Shown in pieces: positions 45,247 through 57,326 of a stretch of 64,000 nucleotides of DNA. The notes below the pieces were generated by a model. That model was not told where the DNA came from. It did no database searches and was given only the letters and a program-made list of their open reading frames with translations. This DNA is from Pirellulales bacterium (lineage in GTDB: Bacteria; Planctomycetota; Planctomycetia; Pirellulales; JAEUIK01). The stretch lies in the NCBI GenBank assembly GCA_019745975.1, contig JAIESQ010000028.1, forward strand, positions 1 to 64,000, in the 5' to 3' direction. Both the position numbers and the translations under genes were made by a program. Every line of letters begins with the position of its first letter. Positions within the stretch are counted from its first letter, which is position 1.

Positions 45247-46368
45247 ATGGCGGAAAAGAAGAAGCTCTCGGTTGCCGAAATCCTCGCGGCCGCGCGCAAG
45301 GCCGATAGTGGCGGCGCGACCGCCGCGAGCGAGTCGCCTGCCACGTCACCGGCCGATGTCGCGCCGGCAGAGCCAGCCGAAGTAAGCGCGGAGGCGGCAG
45401 TCGAGTCGACTCCGGCCGAGACGCCAGCGCCCACGGCGCCCAAGCCGGCGACTACCGGCACTCCAGGAAAGCGACCGAGTGTAGCCGATATTCTCGCGGC
45501 CGCGCGACAGAAGCAAGCTCCCGGCGCCGCGGCTCCGGCCGCCAAGCCCGCGGCAGCGAAACCCGCGGCCAAGCCGCCCGGCGATAAGCCTGCGAATCCG
45601 GCTGCAAAACCGGCCGCAGGCGAGGCTGCGCCGCGTGGCAGCGGCGTGAAAGATACGGCGAGTATTCTGGCCGCGGCGCGCGGCGGCAATAAACCGGGCC
45701 CGATCTCGAAGGCGGAGGCCGCCGCGCTTACGAAGCCCGCTGCACCTGCGCGCACGACTGAAAAGACCAAGCTGGCGGTGCCGCCGATGCCGGCCAAGCC
45801 CCAGTACGCCGCGACGAAGCCTGGCGAGAAGAAAGCCGTCGAGACCGAGGAGCGGCGCGGGTTTCTGGGCGCATTCTTCGGCGCGTTTATGGGCTCTTTC
45901 CTGGGGCTGGGTTTCTCCTCGCTGGCCGCGACTAATGCGCTGTGGGGACTCGGGACGGCGCGGTTCATGTTCCCCAATGTGCTGATCGAGCCGCCAAGCA
46001 CGTTCAAGGTGGGACCGCCGACCGACTTTCCGCCGGGGGCGGTGTCGGAGAAGTTCAAGGCGCAGTTTGGTGTCTGGGTGGTGAATGGCGAATACAACGG
46101 GCAGCAGCAACTCTACGCGATACGGACAGTGTGCACACATTTGGGGTGCACACCGAACTGGCTCGAAGGGGAGCAGAAGTTCAAGTGCCCCTGTCACGGC
46201 AGCGGCTTTTACAAGGATGGCGTCAACTTCGAAGGACCAGCCCCGCGTCCGCTCGAGCGCTACGCGATCCGGCTAGCCGACGACGGTCAATTGGAAATCG
46301 ACAAGAGCAAGAAATTCCAGGAAGAACTCGGCCAGTGGCGCGATCCGTCGTGCTTCGTGGTCGCCTAA
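45247..46368 (+). CDS. Rieske iron-sulfur protein with long N-terminal extension
   Basis: 373 residues, about twice the usual length. The Rieske domain has C296-T-H298 and C314-P-C-H317 as [2Fe-2S] ligands, with C301 and C316 as the disulfide pair. A TAT-like RRGFLGAFFGA (203 on) begins the membrane helix (about 205-235). The first 200 residues form a Pro/Ala/Lys-rich extension that should lie in the cytoplasm, with three copies of a short motif: SVAEILAAAR (8-17), SVADILAAAR (78-87), DTASILAAAR (136-145). This protein takes electrons from quinol at the bc/b6f-type complex. It is the first gene of the respiratory run, followed 78 nt later by cytochrome b. Confidence 0.92.
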   Translation: MAEKKKLSVAEILAAARKADSGGATAASESPATSPADVAPAEPAEVSAEAAVESTPAETPAPTAPKPATTGTPGKRPSVADILAAARQKQAPGAAAPAAKPAAAKPAAKPPGDKPANPAAKPAAGEAAPRGSGVKDTASILAAARGGNKPGPISKAEAAALTKPAAPARTTEKTKLAVPPMPAKPQYAATKPGEKKAVETEERRGFLGAFFGAFMGSFLGLGFSSLAATNALWGLGTARFMFPNVLIEPPSTFKVGPPTDFPPGAVSEKFKAQFGVWVVNGEYNGQQQLYAIRTVCTHLGCTPNWLEGEQKFKCPCHGSGFYKDGVNFEGPAPRPLERYAIRLADDGQLEIDKSKKFQEELGQWRDPSCFVVA

Positions 46369-46446
46369 CCGACTGGCCGCGAACGGCCTCACCGTCATGT
46401 ACCGGGCCGAGGCGCCTGGTCGCCAGTGGAGAGAAGAACAACCGCT

Positions 46447-47220
46447 ATGTCGCTCGGCGAGACCATTCGCAATAGCCAGGTTTGGAAGAGCATCTTTCGG
46501 CATCCGATGCCCTTGGATCGCCGCAACCGCATTGTGGTGATGCTCACCAATTTCTTCTTGCACCTGCACCCCGTGTCGATCAAGAAACAGGGGATTGCCC
46601 TGTCGTACACCTGGTGCATGGGCGGGGTGACCTTCTTCCTGTTCCTGGTCGAGACGGTCACCGGCGTGCTGTTGATGTTCTATTATCGCCCCACGTTGGA
46701 GTGGGCGTATCACGATATTCTCGATCTCCGCGACGTCACCAGCCTGGGGATCTTACGCGAGCTGCACCGTTGGGGCGCGCACGCCATGGTGATCACAGTC
46801 TGGCTGCACATGTACCGGGTGTTCTTAACCGGCAGCTACAAGCCGCCGCGCGAGTTCAACTGGGTGGTCGGCGTGATCCTGTTGTTGCTCACGCTGTTGT
46901 TGTCGTTTAGCGGCTACTTGCTGCCGTTCGATCAATTGGCGATCTGGGCTATCACGGTCGGCTCGAACATGGCCCGGGCGTCGCCGATTCTGGGCTACGA
47001 GGGACCGTTTCAGCAATTGCTGCAGATCGGCGACATCGACATGATCACCGACACGTCCGACGCGCGGTTCGTCACGATCGGCGAGCGCAACGTCGGCGAG
47101 ATGACGCTGAATCGCTTTTACGTGCTGCACTGCATCGGCTTGCCACTGGCGGTCACGCTGCTGTTGGCGATCCACTTTTGGCGCGTGCGCAAGGACGGCG
47201 GCATCAGCGGTCCGTTGTGA
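46447..47220 (+). CDS. Cytochrome b6-type quinol oxidase subunit
   Basis: 257 residues with four membrane helices, as in cytochrome b6 (the N-terminal part of cytochrome b). Heme b ligands are His107/His121 in helix B (HRWGAH...LHMYR) and His228/His243 in helix D; the 15-residue spacing in helix D is the b6 spacing (bc1 has 14). Cys57 in [11 protein letters not shown] aligns with Cys35 of cytochrome b6, which binds the extra heme ci. So the complex is b6f-like rather than bc1-like. The ATG at 46447 has GGAGAGA upstream. Confidence 0.92.
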
Positions 47221-47303: not shown

Positions 47304-48632
47304 ATGCACGGACACGATCCTCATTTTTACGAGAGCATCCAGGGCTTTCTCGGCAGCTACTACCTGGTGCTGTCGATCATGAACGCCGTGGCGGCGCTCT
47401 ATCTGTGGCGCCGCTTGGGGCGCTGGCTCGAAGCAGCCCTGCTGGTCGTGTTGTTCGGTGGCGGATTCGTGGTTCTCTCCGGAATTGCCTATGGCGGTGG
47501 AACCCGCGTACTGGGGCTGCCGCAGAGTTTCAAGGATTTCGTCAACGCCAACACGGGGCCGGTCATCTATACGCTCGGCACCACCGCGGTGCTGGTGATT
47601 TTCTTCGTCTTTCGGCGGTTCTTCACGAAGCCGGCGGTCGCCTGGGTGTCGCTGAACCTGGCCCTGCTGTTCATGGGGCTGTCGATGACCGACCCGAATT
47701 TCTCGCTCATCGTCACCAAGCCCGATAACGTGCCGATCGTGGGCTTGATCTTCCTCTTAGGCTTTTTCACGTGGCTGGCGACCTACAAGGCGGTGCTCAA
47801 TGATGACCGTCTCGCGCAAGGCTTGCCGCCGCTAGAGAAAGAGGACTCGGAAAAGGTCCTGGTCTGGCCCGACCTCGTCTACACCGAACTGATCTGCATG
47901 ATCGCGCTGACAGCGCTGTTGTTGGTGTGGGCCATCGGTCTGAAGGCTCCGCTCGAAGCGCCGGCCAGCAGCGTCAAGACGCCCAATCCTTCCAAGGCGC
48001 CGTGGTACTTCCTCGGCCTGCAGGAGATGCTCGTCTATTACGACCCGTGGATGGCGGGCGTGGTGCTGCCGAGCCTGGTCTTAGTGGGCCTGATGGCGAT
48101 CCCGTTCCTGGACTTCAACAAGAAGGGGAACGGCTATTACACGATCGCCGAGCGGCCGTTCGGCTACATCATCTTTCAGCTTGGCTTTCTCGAGCTGTGG
48201 ATCACGCTGATCATTTTGGGCACGTTCTTGCGCGGGCCGAACTGGAACTTCTTCGGTCCTTACGAATATTGGGACCCCCACAAAGTGCTGGCCCTGAATA
48301 ACAAGGACCTGTCGCAGTTCTTCTGGGTCGACCTGCTCGACAGCGGTCTGCCGAAAGCGCCGTCGGACTCGGGCACGTTAGTGCAACTCGGCTACATCCT
48401 CAAACGCGAGTGCGTGGGCTTCGTGGGTCTGGCGGTGTACTTCGTGCTGCTGCCGCCGATTCTGGCGATGACCGTGTTCCGCAAGTTTTTCGCGCGGATG
48501 GGCTTCATTCGTTACATGCTGATGTCGAATCTGCTTTTGTTCATGGCTGCCCTGCCGCTAAAGATGGTGTTGCGCTGGGTGTTCAACCTCAAGTACATCG
48601 TGCACATCGACGAGTATTTCCTCAATTTTTAG
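47304..48632 (+). CDS. Subunit IV-like (cytochrome b C-terminal) membrane protein, enlarged
   Basis: 442 residues against about 160 for PetD. The core from about 186 to 300 matches subunit IV: VWPDLVYTELICM, then NPSKAPWYFLGLQEMLVYYDPW (in pieces), where APWY replaces the usual PEWY quinol-site motif, and AIPFLDF, then ELWITLIILGTFLRGPNW. About five extra membrane helices precede it (18-163) and two follow (385-425). The extra helices are unrecognised. It completes the quinol-oxidising centre with the b6-type protein. The next gene is the octaheme protein, 62 nt on. Confidence 0.85.
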   Translation: MHGHDPHFYESIQGFLGSYYLVLSIMNAVAALYLWRRLGRWLEAALLVVLFGGGFVVLSGIAYGGGTRVLGLPQSFKDFVNANTGPVIYTLGTTAVLVIFFVFRRFFTKPAVAWVSLNLALLFMGLSMTDPNFSLIVTKPDNVPIVGLIFLLGFFTWLATYKAVLNDDRLAQGLPPLEKEDSEKVLVWPDLVYTELICMIALTALLLVWAIGLKAPLEAPASSVKTPNPSKAPWYFLGLQEMLVYYDPWMAGVVLPSLVLVGLMAIPFLDFNKKGNGYYTIAERPFGYIIFQLGFLELWITLIILGTFLRGPNWNFFGPYEYWDPHKVLALNNKDLSQFFWVDLLDSGLPKAPSDSGTLVQLGYILKRECVGFVGLAVYFVLLPPILAMTVFRKFFARMGFIRYMLMSNLLLFMAALPLKMVLRWVFNLKYIVHIDEYFLNF

Positions 48633-48694: not shown

Positions 48695-51600
48695 ATGCCA
48701 GCGACAGAATCCACCTGGCGCGACGTCAAGCTGATGCACGTCATCTTCGGACTGACGTCGCTGGGCTTGCTGGTCGGCACGATCTGGATGCTCGCGGACG
48801 ATCACAACCGCGAATGGATGCAACTGCAGCGCGATTTCCGCGACGTGCAGGTGTGGTCGATCAATGCCCGCCTGGCGGAACTGGAAACCGGCGAGTTCAA
48901 GAAGCAGCAGGACGAGCTGAACGACAAATTGGCCGCGGCGCGGCGCGAAGTGCCGCCACCCGAGCCGATCGAGCGATTTTGCCAGTTGATGGTCGCGCGC
49001 GATGAGGCCAATCAAGGCCTGGTCGACGACATTCTCGCCCAGTACAAGGCCCTCCAAGAAGCTACCGACGACGATCTGCGTGCCGATCGTCGGGGAATGC
49101 TGGTCAAGAACCTGTCGGGCATCATCGTCGCGGCCCGCCATCAAGAGACGAAGCTGGCCGACATTCTCAAAGCGACGAGGGCCGATTTGAACGTGGCCAT
49201 CAGCGACTACGACATCGGCACGCGCGATAACGTGTCGCAGGCGGACATGGATCGCCTGCAACAGAAGATCAATGATGTCCGGGCGATCGTCGAAACGCAG
49301 ACGCTCGACAGCCAGGCCGCGAACACCTACCGCAAGAACCTCGAACAGGCGCTGGCCGAAGCAACGACCAGCGAGACGGCAGCTCAGAAAGCTATCGACG
49401 ATTTTCAGCAGCGACCCAAGCAGCTCGCCAAGGCCGAGCAGGCCGAGGAGCGTAGCTGGGGAGAGCGCGTGCTCGAGATGCCGATTATCGACGCCTTCGG
49501 CCGGCCGCTGAAGGTCAATCAGATCTGGCTGCCGCAACTGACGACGAACATCAATTTCCGCGACGTGGCCCGGTTCGATCGCTGCACCACCTGCCACCAA
49601 GGGATCAATCTCACGGCCCCCGGCTCGGCAGTCGATCCGGCGTACCACGGCGCGGAGATTCTCACATTTACGCTCGCCACGCCTGAAGCGCCCCCGCAAG
49701 GCGAAGCAGATAAGCCGGCTGAGCCTACGGTCGAGGCCGTTTATGGCATGAAGCTGGCCGACAAGTTACGCAAGGGGAGCGTGGCGATTCAGGCTGTGTG
49801 GCCCGATCAAGCGGCCGCCAAAGCCGCGCGCGTGGCGCCGGGCGTAGTCCCTGCGCTCGCGCCGCAGAATCCGCCGGGGACGTTGCAGCATGGCGATGCG
49901 GTGGTGTATCAGCCCCCGGCGGGGTTGCGCGCCGGCGACGTGATCGAACGCGTCAACGATTTGGATATTCTCTCGCTGCAGCAAGCCGAGAACGCACTGT
50001 TGTCAGCCGTCACCTGGGGCCAGCCGCTGACCTTGCATGTGCGGCGCGGCGCGGCGCAGCCGTTCAGCTCGCATCCCCGGCTCGACCTTTTTGTCGGCGA
50101 CGCCAGTCCGCACAGTTCGGCCAAGATGGGCTGCACGATTTGCCACGACGGGCAAGGCAACGCCACGACGTTTCAATGGGCTTCGCACTCCCCCAACAGC
50201 GAACTGCAGCGCGAGGAATGGTCGCGCGTGCACGGGTACCACTTCAACCACGATTGGTGGTTCCCGATGTTCCCCAAGCGGTTCGCCGAAAGCACCTGCT
50301 TAAAGTGCCATCACGATCTCGGCGAGCTGGAGCCGAGCGCTCGCTTTCCCGAGCCGCCGGCCGCCAAGTTGATGGAAGGCTTCCACCTCGTTCGACAATA
50401 CGGTTGTTTCGGTTGTCATGAAATCAACGGCTTCGACGGCCCGAACAAGCGGATCGGCCCCGATCTGCGCAGCGAGCCGAATATTGCGGCCGCGGCCCAA
50501 CAGTTGCTGACCGACCCGGGCGTGAGTGAGGAGGAAAAACAGCTCTCCGAGACGCTCATCACCAATCCATACGATCGCACCGCGCTGGCGCGGTTGGGTG
50601 AGTTGTTGCGGGCCGATGAGACGCGGGCCGCCGAGAAGCAAGAAGAGGCGGGACAAGAGCCGCCGAAGCTATCGGCCCCGTCGTTCCAGTTGCTGAGCAT
50701 CCTAGGCGCGCCGGAGGAAATCCCCGGCAAGATGCGCAAAGTCGGCCCCAGCCTGCGGCACCTGAAGAGCAAGGTCGATTTCAACTTCGTCTACGACTGG
50801 GTTCGCGAGCCGAGGCACTTCCGGCCGTCGACCCGCATGCCGCAATTCTTCGGTCTGTGGGATCATCTTGTGCCAGTGGTCGAGACCGATGCGGCTGGGC
50901 ACGAGCAGATCGAGGAGTCGAAAGGACTCAAGGACGCCGAGCGCTTTGAGCCGATCGAAATCCGCGCGATCACGCAGTACTTGCTGGGGCATAGCCAGCC
51001 ATTCGAATACCTCGACCGCCCGGCAGGCGTGACCGAGGAACCTTCGGCCGAGCGCGGCCGCAAGCTGTTCGAAACGCGCGGCTGCCTGGCCTGCCATCAG
51101 CACCCCGATTTCCCCACGGCACAAGCCGATCAGGGACCCGCGCTGGGCCGGCTGTCGGCCAAGCTCACCAGCGAAGCGGGGAGGCGCTGGCTTTACACCT
51201 GGCTGCGCGAGCCAACGGCTTATCATCCGCGCACGCTGATGCCGAACCTGTTCCTCGAGCCGATCAAGCAGAAGATCGACGGTCAGGATCGCGTGACCGA
51301 CCCGGCGGCCGACATCGCTGCCTACCTGTTGGCGCCGCGCGACGGCGACGCCGAGTACAAGCCGCTCGTCCCTGAGCAGCTTCCGGCCGAAGCCGATCTG
51401 AACGAACTGGTGCTCTTGCACCTGAAAAAGGCCTTCACGGAAGTGCAGGCGGAAAAATATCTGAAAGAAGGGATTCCGGCCGATCGCGCTGCCGACGTGC
51501 CGGCTGACGAACGCGAGCTGACCGCGCCACTGACCGCCGAGAAGAAGTTCGAATATATCGGCCGCAAGGCGATCTCGAAGTACGGCTGCACCGGCTGCCA

Positions 51601-53200
51601 TGACATCCCCGGTTACGAGACCACGAAGCCGATCGGCACTGGGCTGGCTGACTGGGGCCGCAAAGAGGCCGACAAACTGGCCTTCGAGCAGATCGACCAG
51701 TACATCGCCTGGATCGAGCACGCTCACGGAGGCGGGCATGGCACTGGCGAACACGGTCACGCCGAGCACGCGTCGGAAGATACGCCCGAGGGGCTCGACG
51801 CGTTCCGGGCACGCAAAGCCGACGAGCTCAAACGGTTCGACCCCGATGGTTTGCTCCTGCACGAGCTAGGGCATCACCACCGCATGGGCTTTTTGTGGAA
51901 CAAGATCCGCGAGCCGCGCAGCTACGACTACAAGAAGACCGAGAATAAGGACTACAACGACCGGCTGCGGATGCCGAAGTTCAACTTCACGCCCGACCAG
52001 GTCGAGGCGGTGATGACGTTTGTACTTGGGCTGCTGGCCGAACCACCGGCGGCGCAGTATGTCTATCGCGCGTCGCCACGGCAGCAGGCGATCAACGAAG
52101 GCAAGCACGTTCTCGAGAAGTTTAACTGTGGCGGCTGCCACACGCTGGAGATGCCGCACTGGCAATTCGAGTACGATCCACAGCAATTCCCGCCGCCCGC
52201 CGAGCTCAACGATTACGCCTTCTTGGCGCCGCACTTCGACCCCGCCACGCTCGAAGATTCGGCCAAAGTTGATCACCGCGGATTGGGCTCAGCGGACATT
52301 GCCGGCCAGCCGATGGTCGACGCCGAAGGGAACTTCGTCGAAGACGTCGACGAGAACGAAAACCCCCTCTACTTCTTCACGCTCTGGCAGAACAAGCCGA
52401 TTGCAGGACACGCGTATACGTCGGGCACGCAGTTGGGCGTCGCCAAGCCGCAATTGGTTTCGGCCCGTCCCGCTTGGGGCGGCTACCTGTCGCGGTTGAT
52501 TTATCCGTCGGTGCTGGCGACCGGGCGCGAGGAAAACCCGAACTTCAAGGACACCGATGCCTGGGGCTGGCTGCCGCCGCCACTGGTGGGCGAGGGGCGC
52601 AAGGTGCAGCCCGCCTGGCTGCACGACTTCTTGCTCGACCCGGTGTCGATCCGCCCGGCCGTGGTGCTGCGGATGCCGAAGTTTAACCTCTCGACCGACG
52701 AAGCAAGCAAGCTGGTCGATTACTTCGCCGCGGCCGACGGCGCGGAGTATCCGTATGCGATCGATCCGCGGACGCGCGGCGCGCACCTGGCGGCGGCCGA
52801 AGCGACGCATCCCAATCGCCTGGCCGATGCGATGAAGATCGTCACCAACGGCAACTACTGCGTGAAGTGTCATCACTTGGGCGATTTCGTCCCCGACGGG
52901 AGCGTGTACGCAATGGCGCCGAATTTGGACCGCGTCTATCGTCGGCTGCGGCCCGACTTCGTCCGCGACTGGGTCGCCAATCCACCGAGAATCATTCCGA
53001 CGACGGTGATGCCGATCAACATTCCGCCCGACAAGCCAATTGCTCAAGACATCTTCGAGGGGACGAGCGAAGAGCAGTTGCAGGGGGTGGTCGATCTGCT
53101 GATGAACTACGACGTGTTCATGAAGGATCGCACGAGCATCCGCCCGATGATTCAGGCGGCGCCTCCCGAGGCCGCCGGGCAGGCGGCGGGGGGCGAGTAA
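48695..53200 (+). CDS. Giant octaheme cytochrome c with coiled-coil and PDZ-like regions
   Basis: 1501 residues. One membrane helix (13-33) anchors an exterior protein. A coiled coil follows (about 35-90 and 150-258), then the first heme motif CTTCH (297-301), a PDZ-like region (about 380-452, GLRAGDVIERVNDLDIL) and seven more CxxCH motifs at 480, 535, 571, 797, 965, 1145 and 1389. After each of the last five, a block with WxxxP and a Met-Pro (Met715, 849, 1093, 1327, 1439) could give the sixth ligand; the first three hemes lack one. A His-rich loop lies at 1009-1026. It occupies the place of cytochrome c1/f in the run and probably carries electrons from the Rieske protein to the oxidase. The architecture is unusual. 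Confidence 0.9.
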   Translation: MPATESTWRDVKLMHVIFGLTSLGLLVGTIWMLADDHNREWMQLQRDFRDVQVWSINARLAELETGEFKKQQDELNDKLAAARREVPPPEPIERFCQLMVARDEANQGLVDDILAQYKALQEATDDDLRADRRGMLVKNLSGIIVAARHQETKLADILKATRADLNVAISDYDIGTRDNVSQADMDRLQQKINDVRAIVETQTLDSQAANTYRKNLEQALAEATTSETAAQKAIDDFQQRPKQLAKAEQAEERSWGERVLEMPIIDAFGRPLKVNQIWLPQLTTNINFRDVARFDRCTTCHQGINLTAPGSAVDPAYHGAEILTFTLATPEAPPQGEADKPAEPTVEAVYGMKLADKLRKGSVAIQAVWPDQAAAKAARVAPGVVPALAPQNPPGTLQHGDAVVYQPPAGLRAGDVIERVNDLDILSLQQAENALLSAVTWGQPLTLHVRRGAAQPFSSHPRLDLFVGDASPHSSAKMGCTICHDGQGNATTFQWASHSPNSELQREEWSRVHGYHFNHDWWFPMFPKRFAESTCLKCHHDLGELEPSARFPEPPAAKLMEGFHLVRQYGCFGCHEINGFDGPNKRIGPDLRSEPNIAAAAQQLLTDPGVSEEEKQLSETLITNPYDRTALARLGELLRADETRAAEKQEEAGQEPPKLSAPSFQLLSILGAPEEIPGKMRKVGPSLRHLKSKVDFNFVYDWVREPRHFRPSTRMPQFFGLWDHLVPVVETDAAGHEQIEESKGLKDAERFEPIEIRAITQYLLGHSQPFEYLDRPAGVTEEPSAERGRKLFETRGCLACHQHPDFPTAQADQGPALGRLSAKLTSEAGRRWLYTWLREPTAYHPRTLMPNLFLEPIKQKIDGQDRVTDPAADIAAYLLAPRDGDAEYKPLVPEQLPAEADLNELVLLHLKKAFTEVQAEKYLKEGIPADRAADVPADERELTAPLTAEKKFEYIGRKAISKYGCTGCHDIPGYETTKPIGTGLADWGRKEADKLAFEQIDQYIAWIEHAHGGGHGTGEHGHAEHASEDTPEGLDAFRARKADELKRFDPDGLLLHELGHHHRMGFLWNKIREPRSYDYKKTENKDYNDRLRMPKFNFTPDQVEAVMTFVLGLLAEPPAAQYVYRASPRQQAINEGKHVLEKFNCGGCHTLEMPHWQFEYDPQQFPPPAELNDYAFLAPHFDPATLEDSAKVDHRGLGSADIAGQPMVDAEGNFVEDVDENENPLYFFTLWQNKPIAGHAYTSGTQLGVAKPQLVSARPAWGGYLSRLIYPSVLATGREENPNFKDTDAWGWLPPPLVGEGRKVQPAWLHDFLLDPVSIRPAVVLRMPKFNLSTDEASKLVDYFAAADGAEYPYAIDPRTRGAHLAAAEATHPNRLADAMKIVTNGNYCVKCHHLGDFVPDGSVYAMAPNLDRVYRRLRPDFVRDWVANPPRIIPTTVMPINIPPDKPIAQDIFEGTSEEQLQGVVDLLMNYDVFMKDRTSIRPMIQAAPPEAAGQAAGGE

Positions 53201-55222: not shown

Positions 55223-56509
55223 ATGAGCAATCTGCACGCTCCGCGAAATCTGTTTCGGGCGTTGGCGTTCTTGGCCTGCGGCGCCGCGCTGGTCGGTTGC
55301 GGCCAGTCGGACGCCGCCCGGTTTCGTCTCAACATGGATGGGCGCGACCCGACATTCGCTTCGTATGAAGTACAAGCCGATGAGGCCAAGACGAGCGAAG
55401 AAAGCAAGCAGTTTCGCGAAGATCGCAAAGTCGCCATTGCCAACGAGAAGGTCCGCCAGCAGCTCGTCGTCGACTTATTGACGGCCGGCTTTGGCACACC
55501 TGACGAGCCGTTCGCTCCCTCCGACTTGGGGCTCGATATCGCCAGGCTGCGCCGTGCCGCGGGCCCGGTTGCCAGTTACCAATCGGGTCAACAGCATGGG
55601 CTTTATCGCAAGCACTGTGCCCACTGCCACGGAATCTCGGGCGACGGCGCCGGCCCCACGGCGCTGTTCTTGAATCCCTACCCGCGCGACTACCGACCGG
55701 GCGTCTTTAAGTTCACATCGACGGGCCCGGGAATGAAGCCGACGCGTGCCGACCTCGAGCGGACGATTCGCGAGGGGCTGGCTGGCACCGCGATGCCGTC
55801 GTTCGCCACGCTGCCGCAGTTCGAGGTCGACGCGCTGATCGAGTACGTCATCTACTTGAGCATTCGTGGCGAGACCGAAACACTTCTGAATGCGGCGTTC
55901 GAAGGCGAAGAGCTTGAGCCGATCGACCTGAAGGCCGACGCCGCCAAGCAGCAGGAGCAGGCGACGGCCCTCGCCGAGCGGCTGAAGAGTGAAGCCGCTG
56001 ACCGCGCATCGCTCTGGACGGCCGCCGTGGACACCATCGTAGTGCCCAATCAGGAGGCGATTCCCCCCTTTCTTCCGGCCGAAGGCACCGCTGAGTGGCA
56101 AGCCTCGGTCGAGCGCGGGCGGGTGTTGTTCCGCGACAGCAAGACCGCCAACTGCATCAAGTGTCACGGACTAACGGCACTGGGTGACGGCGGTGGCGAA
56201 GAGCTGTTCGACGACTGGAACAAGGCCAAGCCGGCCAACACCAAACCTGAAATCGCCCTGTGGGAATTGCCAAAGCAGGAGCTGCGGCCGCGCAATTTGC
56301 GGCTGGGTATCTACCGCGGCGGCCGCCGCCCGGCCGATTTGTATCGCCGCATTCACGTCGGCATCAAGGGAACGCCAATGCCGGCAGCCGGCAACGTGCT
56401 GACGCAGCCGGGGCAGATTTGGGACATCGTGAACTACGTGTTGTCGCTACCGTACGAAGCATCGGGCGAGGCCAAGCCCACGCAGCCCAGCGTGGCACAA
56501 GCGCCTTAG
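55223..56509 (+). CDS. Diheme cytochrome c lipoprotein
   Basis: 428 residues. The lipobox LVGCGQ anchors it to the membrane. Two class I cytochrome c domains hold CAHCH (132-136) and CIKCH (311-315); Met residues for the sixth ligand are likely in AMPSFATLPQFEVDALIEYVIYL and in KGTPMPAAGN. It is placed directly before coxB, whose product lacks a fused cytochrome c, so it may be the electron donor to the CuA centre. Confidence 0.88.
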   Translation: MSNLHAPRNLFRALAFLACGAALVGCGQSDAARFRLNMDGRDPTFASYEVQADEAKTSEESKQFREDRKVAIANEKVRQQLVVDLLTAGFGTPDEPFAPSDLGLDIARLRRAAGPVASYQSGQQHGLYRKHCAHCHGISGDGAGPTALFLNPYPRDYRPGVFKFTSTGPGMKPTRADLERTIREGLAGTAMPSFATLPQFEVDALIEYVIYLSIRGETETLLNAAFEGEELEPIDLKADAAKQQEQATALAERLKSEAADRASLWTAAVDTIVVPNQEAIPPFLPAEGTAEWQASVERGRVLFRDSKTANCIKCHGLTALGDGGGEELFDDWNKAKPANTKPEIALWELPKQELRPRNLRLGIYRGGRRPADLYRRIHVGIKGTPMPAAGNVLTQPGQIWDIVNYVLSLPYEASGEAKPTQPSVAQAP

Positions 56510-56576: not shown

Positions 56577-57322
56577 GTGGGAAAATTCTGGAGCCTGCTG
56601 TTCTTGCTGGTGCCGATCCTGGGGGTGTTGTGCTTCGCGCTGGCGCCGCTATCGGGTTATTGGCTGCCGCCCGATATTTCGGAGCACGGCTATAAGATCG
56701 ACCACTTGTTCAAGTTTTGCTTGTATCTGACGGGCGTGGTGTTCATCGCCACGGAAGTGGTGCTGTTCTGGTTCATGTGGCGCTACGACGGCCGTACGAA
56801 CCGCGATCCGGTGAAGTTCTCGCACGGCAGCCACAACCTGGAGATCATCTGGACGATCGTGCCAGCGGCCACGCTGTTGTTCATCGCCATCTACCAGATG
56901 AACGCTTGGGCCGATGCCAAGATGCGCACGCCGAACGTGCCCGCCATCGTTGAGGTCACTGGGCGGCAGTTCGAGTGGCGCATTCGCTACCCTGGCCCCG
57001 ACGGCGAGTTGGGTACCGAGGACGACATTCACGGCGTCAACGACTTGCACCTGCCGGTCAATGAACAGATCGTGCTCAACCTGAAGAGCATGGACGTGCT
57101 GCACGACTTTTTCGTGCCACAACTGCGCATCAAGCAGGATGCCGTTCCTGGCAACAAGATTCCCATGTGGTTCACGGCCCGCGAAACCGGCACCTATGAA
57201 ATCGTCTGCGCCGAGCTGTGCGGGTGGGGGCATTACAAGATGAAGGGGCGTCTGACCGTCGAGTCGCGGGAAGCGTTCGACGCCTGGCTGAAACAACGCG
57301 CCGCGGAGCAAAAGGCCACGCA

Positions 57323-57326
<4 letters not shown>
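56577..57326 (+). CDS. coxB: Cytochrome c oxidase subunit II
   Basis: 249 residues. Two membrane helices precede a cupredoxin domain with the binuclear CuA site: His176 (VLHDFF), Cys211 and Cys215 in CAELCGWGHYKM, His219 and Met222. No C-terminal cytochrome c domain, so it is of aa3 rather than caa3 type. GTG start with AAAGG 7 nt upstream. It overlaps coxA by four nucleotides. Confidence 0.95.

Follow-up and report, generated by a model that had tools for sequence, protein, structure and literature searches.

Introduction

EPYC1 is a linker protein of Rubisco. In bacteria, partners are recruited by short conserved elements carried on disordered tails, as in the C-terminal scaffold of RNase E and the repeats of CsoS2.

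The tails described here are built like the Rubisco linkers EPYC1 and PYCO1, in which several short binding elements lie on a disordered or repetitive chain and make the protein multivalent (for PYCO1, excerpts of PMC10288592). Whereas both of these bind Rubisco in the pyrenoid, the chain reported here extends a respiratory membrane protein and several others. It also resembles the RNase E scaffold and CsoS2 in placing short conserved elements on disordered tails, the proteins and the motifs being different ones.

The best PDB matches of our Rieske profile were 9rk3 and 9rk4, which from their titles we take to be Rieske/cytochrome b proteins of anammox planctomycetes. The anammox Rieske/cytochrome b complexes (PMC12954380) represent the same protein family in the same phylum, and neither ‘N-terminal’ nor ‘extension’ occurs in the main text of that paper. 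A literature search covering titles and the beginnings of abstracts returned nothing on a Rieske tail, or on such a motif, in planctomycetes.

A motif-bearing tail on the Rieske protein

The window is the whole 64,000-nucleotide stretch of Pirellulales DNA that was analysed, and all genes and features located in it below lie on the forward strand (+). An open reading frame at 45247..46368 translates into a Rieske [2Fe-2S] protein of 373 amino acids, whose Rieske domain (residues 254–339; 46006..46263; Pfam Rieske, E 2.8e-10) contains CTHLGC and CPCHGSGF; the cluster motifs CTHLGC and CPCHGS are invariant in 56 orthologues. The next gene encodes a b6-like cytochrome b (46426..47220; Pfam Cytochrome_B, 1.2e-37), an adjacency expected of a Rieske protein of a bc/b6f-type complex. 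A cytochrome b C-terminal or subunit IV-like protein (47304..48632; Pfam Cytochrom_B_C, 7.9e-05) and a multihaem cytochrome c of 1501 amino acids (48695..53200; Pfam cytochrome c) follow. At 55–59 kb, a diheme cytochrome c (55223..56509), cytochrome c oxidase subunit II (COX2; 56577..57326) and COX1 were named by eye.

The sequence-only reading had described three SVAEILAAAR-type motifs in an extension of about 200 residues, and they are present as described: SVAEILAAAR at residues 8–17 (45268..45297), SVADILAAAR at 78–87 (45478..45507) and DTASILAAAR at 136–145 (45652..45681), the last with a conserved KPGP behind it. Linkers 1 and 2, which flank the second copy (residues 18–77 and 88–135; both within 45298..45651), are rich in Ala, Pro and Lys; residues 1–200 contain 59 Ala, 30 Pro, 28 Lys or Arg and 18 Asp or Glu. 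AlphaFold2 predicts helices on the three motifs (residues 9–20, 79–88 and 137–145) and an extra one at 155–161, with mostly low pLDDT in the linkers. This prediction agrees with the earlier proposal of short helices on flexible linkers, and it comes, like the SH3-domain reading below, from one AlphaFold2 model for each protein.

Behind the tail are an Arg-Arg pair (R203 and R204, invariant in the 56 aligned sequences) and a predicted membrane helix at residues 205–241 (together 45853..45969; alignment and AlphaFold2). The Arg pair reads as a putative Tat signal. Since the pair and the helix both come after it, the tail precedes the membrane helix. In Rieske proteins of the usual topology the part N-terminal of this helix lies in the cytoplasm, and given that topology we infer that the tail is on the cytoplasmic side of the membrane.

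A degenerate DNA pattern for ILAAAR matched three times in the window, each time within the Rieske gene, where 0.12 matches were expected; at least three were found in 0 of 100 shuffles. In shuffled Rieske tails, the motif regular expression is expected 0.0002 times per tail. Together with the genome controls given below, these figures rule out a chance origin of the motif.

Conservation of the tail

Rieske matches at E 1e-60 or better were obtained in 64 of 97 genomes of the order. From 93 Rieske proteins, 56 that matched a loose motif expression were aligned (A2), and the figures that follow therefore describe tailed proteins; the counts by family in the next paragraph are less selected. The commonest residue has a mean frequency of 0.85, 0.78 and 0.85 in motif copies 1, 2 and 3. 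In the linkers the values fall to 0.38, 0.45 and 0.49, and the Rieske domain has 0.81. Arg17 and Arg87 are present in 56/56 sequences and Arg145 in 54/56, and the consensus N-terminus reads MAxxKKLSVAEILAAAR. The flanks are specific to each copy: K-x-D often stands behind copy 1 (Lys in 33/56, Asp in 28/56) and KPGP behind copy 3. The opposite pattern, conserved linkers with drifting motifs, which would have spoken against the sequence-only reading, is thus not what these orthologues show. The tail has the architecture of a multivalent short-linear-motif scaffold: a short helix that is both repeated and conserved, joined by linkers that vary and are probably disordered. As a separate observation, 7 of the 93 Rieske proteins have Cys in copy 1 at the place equivalent to the Cys-Arg of the SH3-like protein described below.

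Outside the one family designated f17, 60 of the 61 Rieske proteins of the order have the motif within the last 215 residues of the tail; the exception (genome G015) has one copy further out. The Rieske proteins of f17 and of f23–f26 are short-tailed, whereas that of the cultured species Lacipirellula limnantheis (L171) has a tail. The proteins of f21 (11), f23–f26 (8) and f17 (5) were fetched through Rieske matches, independently of the motif pattern, and 11 of the 12 from f22 through motif matches.

Ala/Pro/Lys tails should expand easily, and copy number is variable, so the repeats might be a neutral expansion in a low-complexity tail. This is hardly credible, given that the motifs are as conserved as the Rieske domain and the linkers are not. 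Codon usage speaks against it too. Among pairs of motif copies within the same protein (245 copies in 134 distinct motif-bearing sequences), 616 codons were shared, 873 differed synonymously and 151 non-synonymously, the last count being held low by construction because the expression used fixes 5 of the 10 residues. Judged by their codons, the copies are old and differently spelled, not recent DNA duplications. Neutral repeat expansion was rejected on these two grounds, the contrast between motif and linker conservation and the codon differences.

The motif in other genomes

A search of planctomycete genomes, as the sequence-only reading had proposed, showed that the motif recurs in unrelated proteins. 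Across 57 genomes of the order, the strict DNA pattern A[DE]ILAAAR matched at 112 places and its reversed control at 3; the pattern occurs at least once in 42 of these genomes. Among 30 loci returned for this pattern, 27 encode the Rieske protein or an SH3-like protein; the other three (L050, L061 and L063) were judged to be chance matches and dropped. The same judgement was reached for two loci of the source genome, an enolase-like enzyme (L001) and a short open reading frame (L003), and the single strict matches read in f21 and f23 lie inside folded enzymes and were dropped. A looser pattern, tried in 7 genomes, matched 97 times against 59 times for its control and was left unused. A strict pattern was found in 10 of 21 genomes inside the class Planctomycetia and, in the same comparison, in 0 of 273 outside it.

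The core can be written S/T-x-x-D/E-x-L-A-x-A-R, that is, a helix N-cap pattern (S/T-x-x-D/E), Ile or Leu with small residues, and a nearly invariant final Arg. On its sequence, such a motif set on long linkers is built as docking or sticker elements are. Spelling varies by lineage. All 11 Rieske proteins fetched from f21 are tailed and carry TL[KQA]EKLA-type repeats (family spelling TLKEKLAAAR); by eye, SV[KQ]EIL opens 6 of the 11, and a similar sequence opens another 3. The SH3-like protein of G011 has STADIIAQLRG-like repeats (S-x-x-[DE]IIA[QH]LRG). In f22, the SH3-like tails (L405, L409, L410, L412 and L415) consist mainly of SPLELARQQGAAK and its relatives, unlike the f22 Rieske tails, and the SH3-like proteins of this family have hybrid ends such as STAEILALARQQGPFKG. 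Single copies of the SPLELARQQGAAK-type repeat occur in the source's own order too.

An SH3-like protein with the same motif

The second carrier is encoded in the source genome at G000:C174:12989-13729. It comprises an SH3-like domain of ~70 residues and an Ala/Pro/Lys linker with STADILAAARAKK repeats; in the order, its C-terminus carries a motif variant whose Cys-Arg never changes (18/18, A1), as in TTAEKIAYCRxVDAK. The motif tail is 66–302 residues long in tailed lineages and holds up to 8 copies by a broad regular expression. The protein belongs to no Pfam or NCBIfam family (two stray weak Pfam matches were seen across 18 members), and its sequence profile found no match in the PDB. In the C-terminal copy (source residues 233–248, L002), Cys-Arg-x-x-Asp is invariant in all 18 aligned proteins, and a redox or metal role for these residues is possible.

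The AlphaFold2 model has a pLDDT of about 80–94 over residues 1–70, adopts a predicted SH3-type fold over residues 5–72, and also places helices on the motifs. Its closest structural match is NdhS of photosynthetic complex I (Z 8.5, rmsd 1.9, 60 residues aligned), followed by the variable chain of ferredoxin-thioredoxin reductase (Z 8.0), the KOW domains of Spt5 (Z 7.6) and PetP of cytochrome b6f (Z 7.0, rmsd 2.8, 65 aligned), although Z at this level may, by the comparison tool's own note, mean merely a common arrangement. PMC9342900 groups PetP, NdhS, PsaE and the reductase chain as SH3-type modulators of electron transport, with PetP bound to cytochrome b6f on its cytoplasmic side. The predicted domain shares its fold with this group (Z 8.5 to 6.8); it differs in having no profile match to PDB chains, in having KOW domains within about 1 Z, and in the added motif tail. 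A peripheral electron-transport role for the SH3-like protein is accordingly a good lead from the model, not a result.

Twelve regions around the gene were viewed. In 4 of the 11 contexts recognised, nadA (quinolinate synthase) lies ≤1 kb away (G000:C174, at L079:8894-9733; L080; L082; L087), and these regions gave no clue beyond nadA.

Both proteins could be read in 51 genomes, a count that leaves out 7 of 88 genomes whose SH3-like proteins escaped parsing by the regular expression. Of the 51, motif tails are present on both proteins in 42 and on neither in 7; 2 have a relict on the SH3-like protein only, and none has a tail on the Rieske protein alone. The presence of tails changed independently only a few times on the tree, so these genomes should not be counted as 51 separate events. 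The nine genomes lacking paired tails belong to f17, f23, f25 and f26; both relict cases are from f17, with one relict on a short SH3 tail and a Rieske protein without a motif tail.

This joint presence, the fold and the position of PetP (PMC9342900, in part) would all fit an SH3-like domain that is itself the receptor of the helices, in a protein acting as a peripheral subunit of the Rieske/cytochrome b complex in the manner of the cyanobacterial PetP. We consider this improbable. The SH3 profile matched in 0 of the 45 f21 genomes of this draw, despite the Rieske tails of that family, and in nine genomes of the order (G011, G020, G028, G036, G059, G064, G071, G087 and G096) the SH3-like protein kept its motifs with no Rieske orthologue found. 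SH3 domains without motifs also exist beside short Rieske proteins, and KOW domains fit the fold about equally well. Since f21 and these nine genomes show both reversals, the two proteins are not obligate partners, a relation for which these genomes give no support. Each seems rather to be a client of some third component, or only optionally of the other. In G005, a 97% complete genome of the same family as the source, neither a close Rieske protein nor the SH3-like protein was found.

Further carrier proteins

Carriers other than the Rieske protein have 1–8 motif copies, with Ala/Pro/Lys linkers like those of the Rieske tail. One genus of f22 has, in two of its genomes (G170 and G186), a tail-only protein of 277–290 residues with several copies, encoded directly upstream of genes for a diheme cytochrome c and COX2. 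These cluster genes resemble those downstream in the window: the diheme cytochromes c are 40% identical (BLASTP, 302 columns, L286) and the COX2 subunits 42% identical (L278). Of 198 genomes, 95 are listed as having a Rieske orthologue (E 1e-40), and neither G170 nor G186 is one of them. A similar tail-only protein occurs in G273. The tail-only proteins at L286:2891-3763 and L278:2695-3528 have a basic, Trp/Phe-containing end, RGGWFARLFESRA, which from its sequence may be a membrane-binding helix.

In G098, STADILAAARAGT stands in the linker between the Rieske-type and FAD/NAD domains of a nitrite reductase, which is the last linker of this 968-residue fusion (L283:864-3767) of nitrite reductase, Rieske-type ferredoxin and FAD/NAD oxidoreductase. 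Among the homologues printed, L319 and L323 have clear variants and L320 a doubtful one; the rest, which are most of them, have no motif. A protein of G297 (L425:7073-7693; no Pfam match) begins MNKPSTADILAAARAAKK and so has an N-terminal copy. A ferredoxin-like gene lies ~2 kb from it.

The motif is therefore not private to the Rieske protein, an observation new to this work. Relatives have it without a Rieske protein, and what has to be explained is thus a clade-wide tag rather than a feature of one protein. The tag is real, conserved and common to unrelated proteins of Planctomycetia. The earlier proposal of docking motifs gains from this recurrence, and the range of the motif extends beyond the Rieske protein.

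That the motif-bearing nitrite reductase is, like the Rieske protein, an iron-sulphur protein, and that the Rieske tail precedes the invariant Arg-Arg pair, would suit an assembly or proofreading tag, bound by a chaperone that would keep hold of the Rieske precursor up to cluster insertion and export. This too has a low probability in our judgement: the SH3-like and tail-only proteins carry as many copies or more with neither an Fe-S motif nor a twin-arginine signal, and the short-tailed Rieske proteins of f17 and f23–f26 manage without a tail.

Discussion

We give an even chance to the explanation that the helices are docking tags displayed multivalently, through which proteins of respiration and electron transfer attach to a shared cytoplasmic partner or to one another. 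The Rieske/cytochrome b complex would present several short N-capped helices, on disordered linkers, at its cytoplasmic side, and the SH3-like proteins, the stand-alone tail proteins of the oxidase cluster and the nitrite reductase would take part in the same interaction. Its likeliest form is a cytoplasmic receptor common to all of them, with a groove in which a helix docks. The avidity of several copies per tail would then bring complexes together at the inner membrane face, and three or more copies on a membrane complex might retain a soluble partner or connect complexes. The common partner and the clustering of complexes are what we infer from this arrangement.

Docking is a reasonable proposal, and recurrence of the motif in unrelated proteins strengthens it. 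Against it stand f21, with no SH3 match, and the nine genomes with SH3 motifs and no Rieske orthologue; the f22 SH3 tails, built mainly of another repeat than the Rieske tails of the same family; and the nitrite reductase homologues, most of which lack the motif.

Alternatively, the helices may be stickers that bind each other, the Rieske and SH3-like tails forming a network or condensate at the membrane. The motif is near-identical on the two proteins, in 1–8 copies on disordered linkers, and no single partner gene would be needed. Self-binding would also explain the uniform lineage variants (TLKEKLAAAR in f21, S-x-x-[DE]IIA[QH]LRG in G011), and oligomerising sticker motifs exist in PYCO1 (PMC10288592, in part). 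However, with Ile and Leu as the only larger hydrophobic residues, and with an invariant Arg, the helix would be expected to pack poorly on itself, and we regard this alternative as rather unlikely.

A broader version of the docking explanation is tentative, and we rate it well short of even. The motifs would form a tag code for respiration in Planctomycetia, in which helices that bind a receptor or themselves, on the cytoplasmic face, draw cytosolic redox enzymes into one assembly with the oxidase cluster and the Rieske/cytochrome b complex, and in which the lineage spellings (ILAAAR, EKLAAAR, IIAQLR) are kept as if co-evolving with the receptor.

The same tag on unrelated proteins suggests, at the level of sequence, a so far undescribed way of bringing them together. 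A 10-residue peptide and a 200-residue deletion make a small, concrete test object for the organisation of electron transport in planctomycetes, and the tag is an example from bacteria of a single short linear motif that several proteins carry. Respiratory complexes associate mainly through their membrane subunits; if the docking explanation is true, a repeated cytoplasmic tag on a complex III subunit and on unrelated soluble proteins would represent a different principle.
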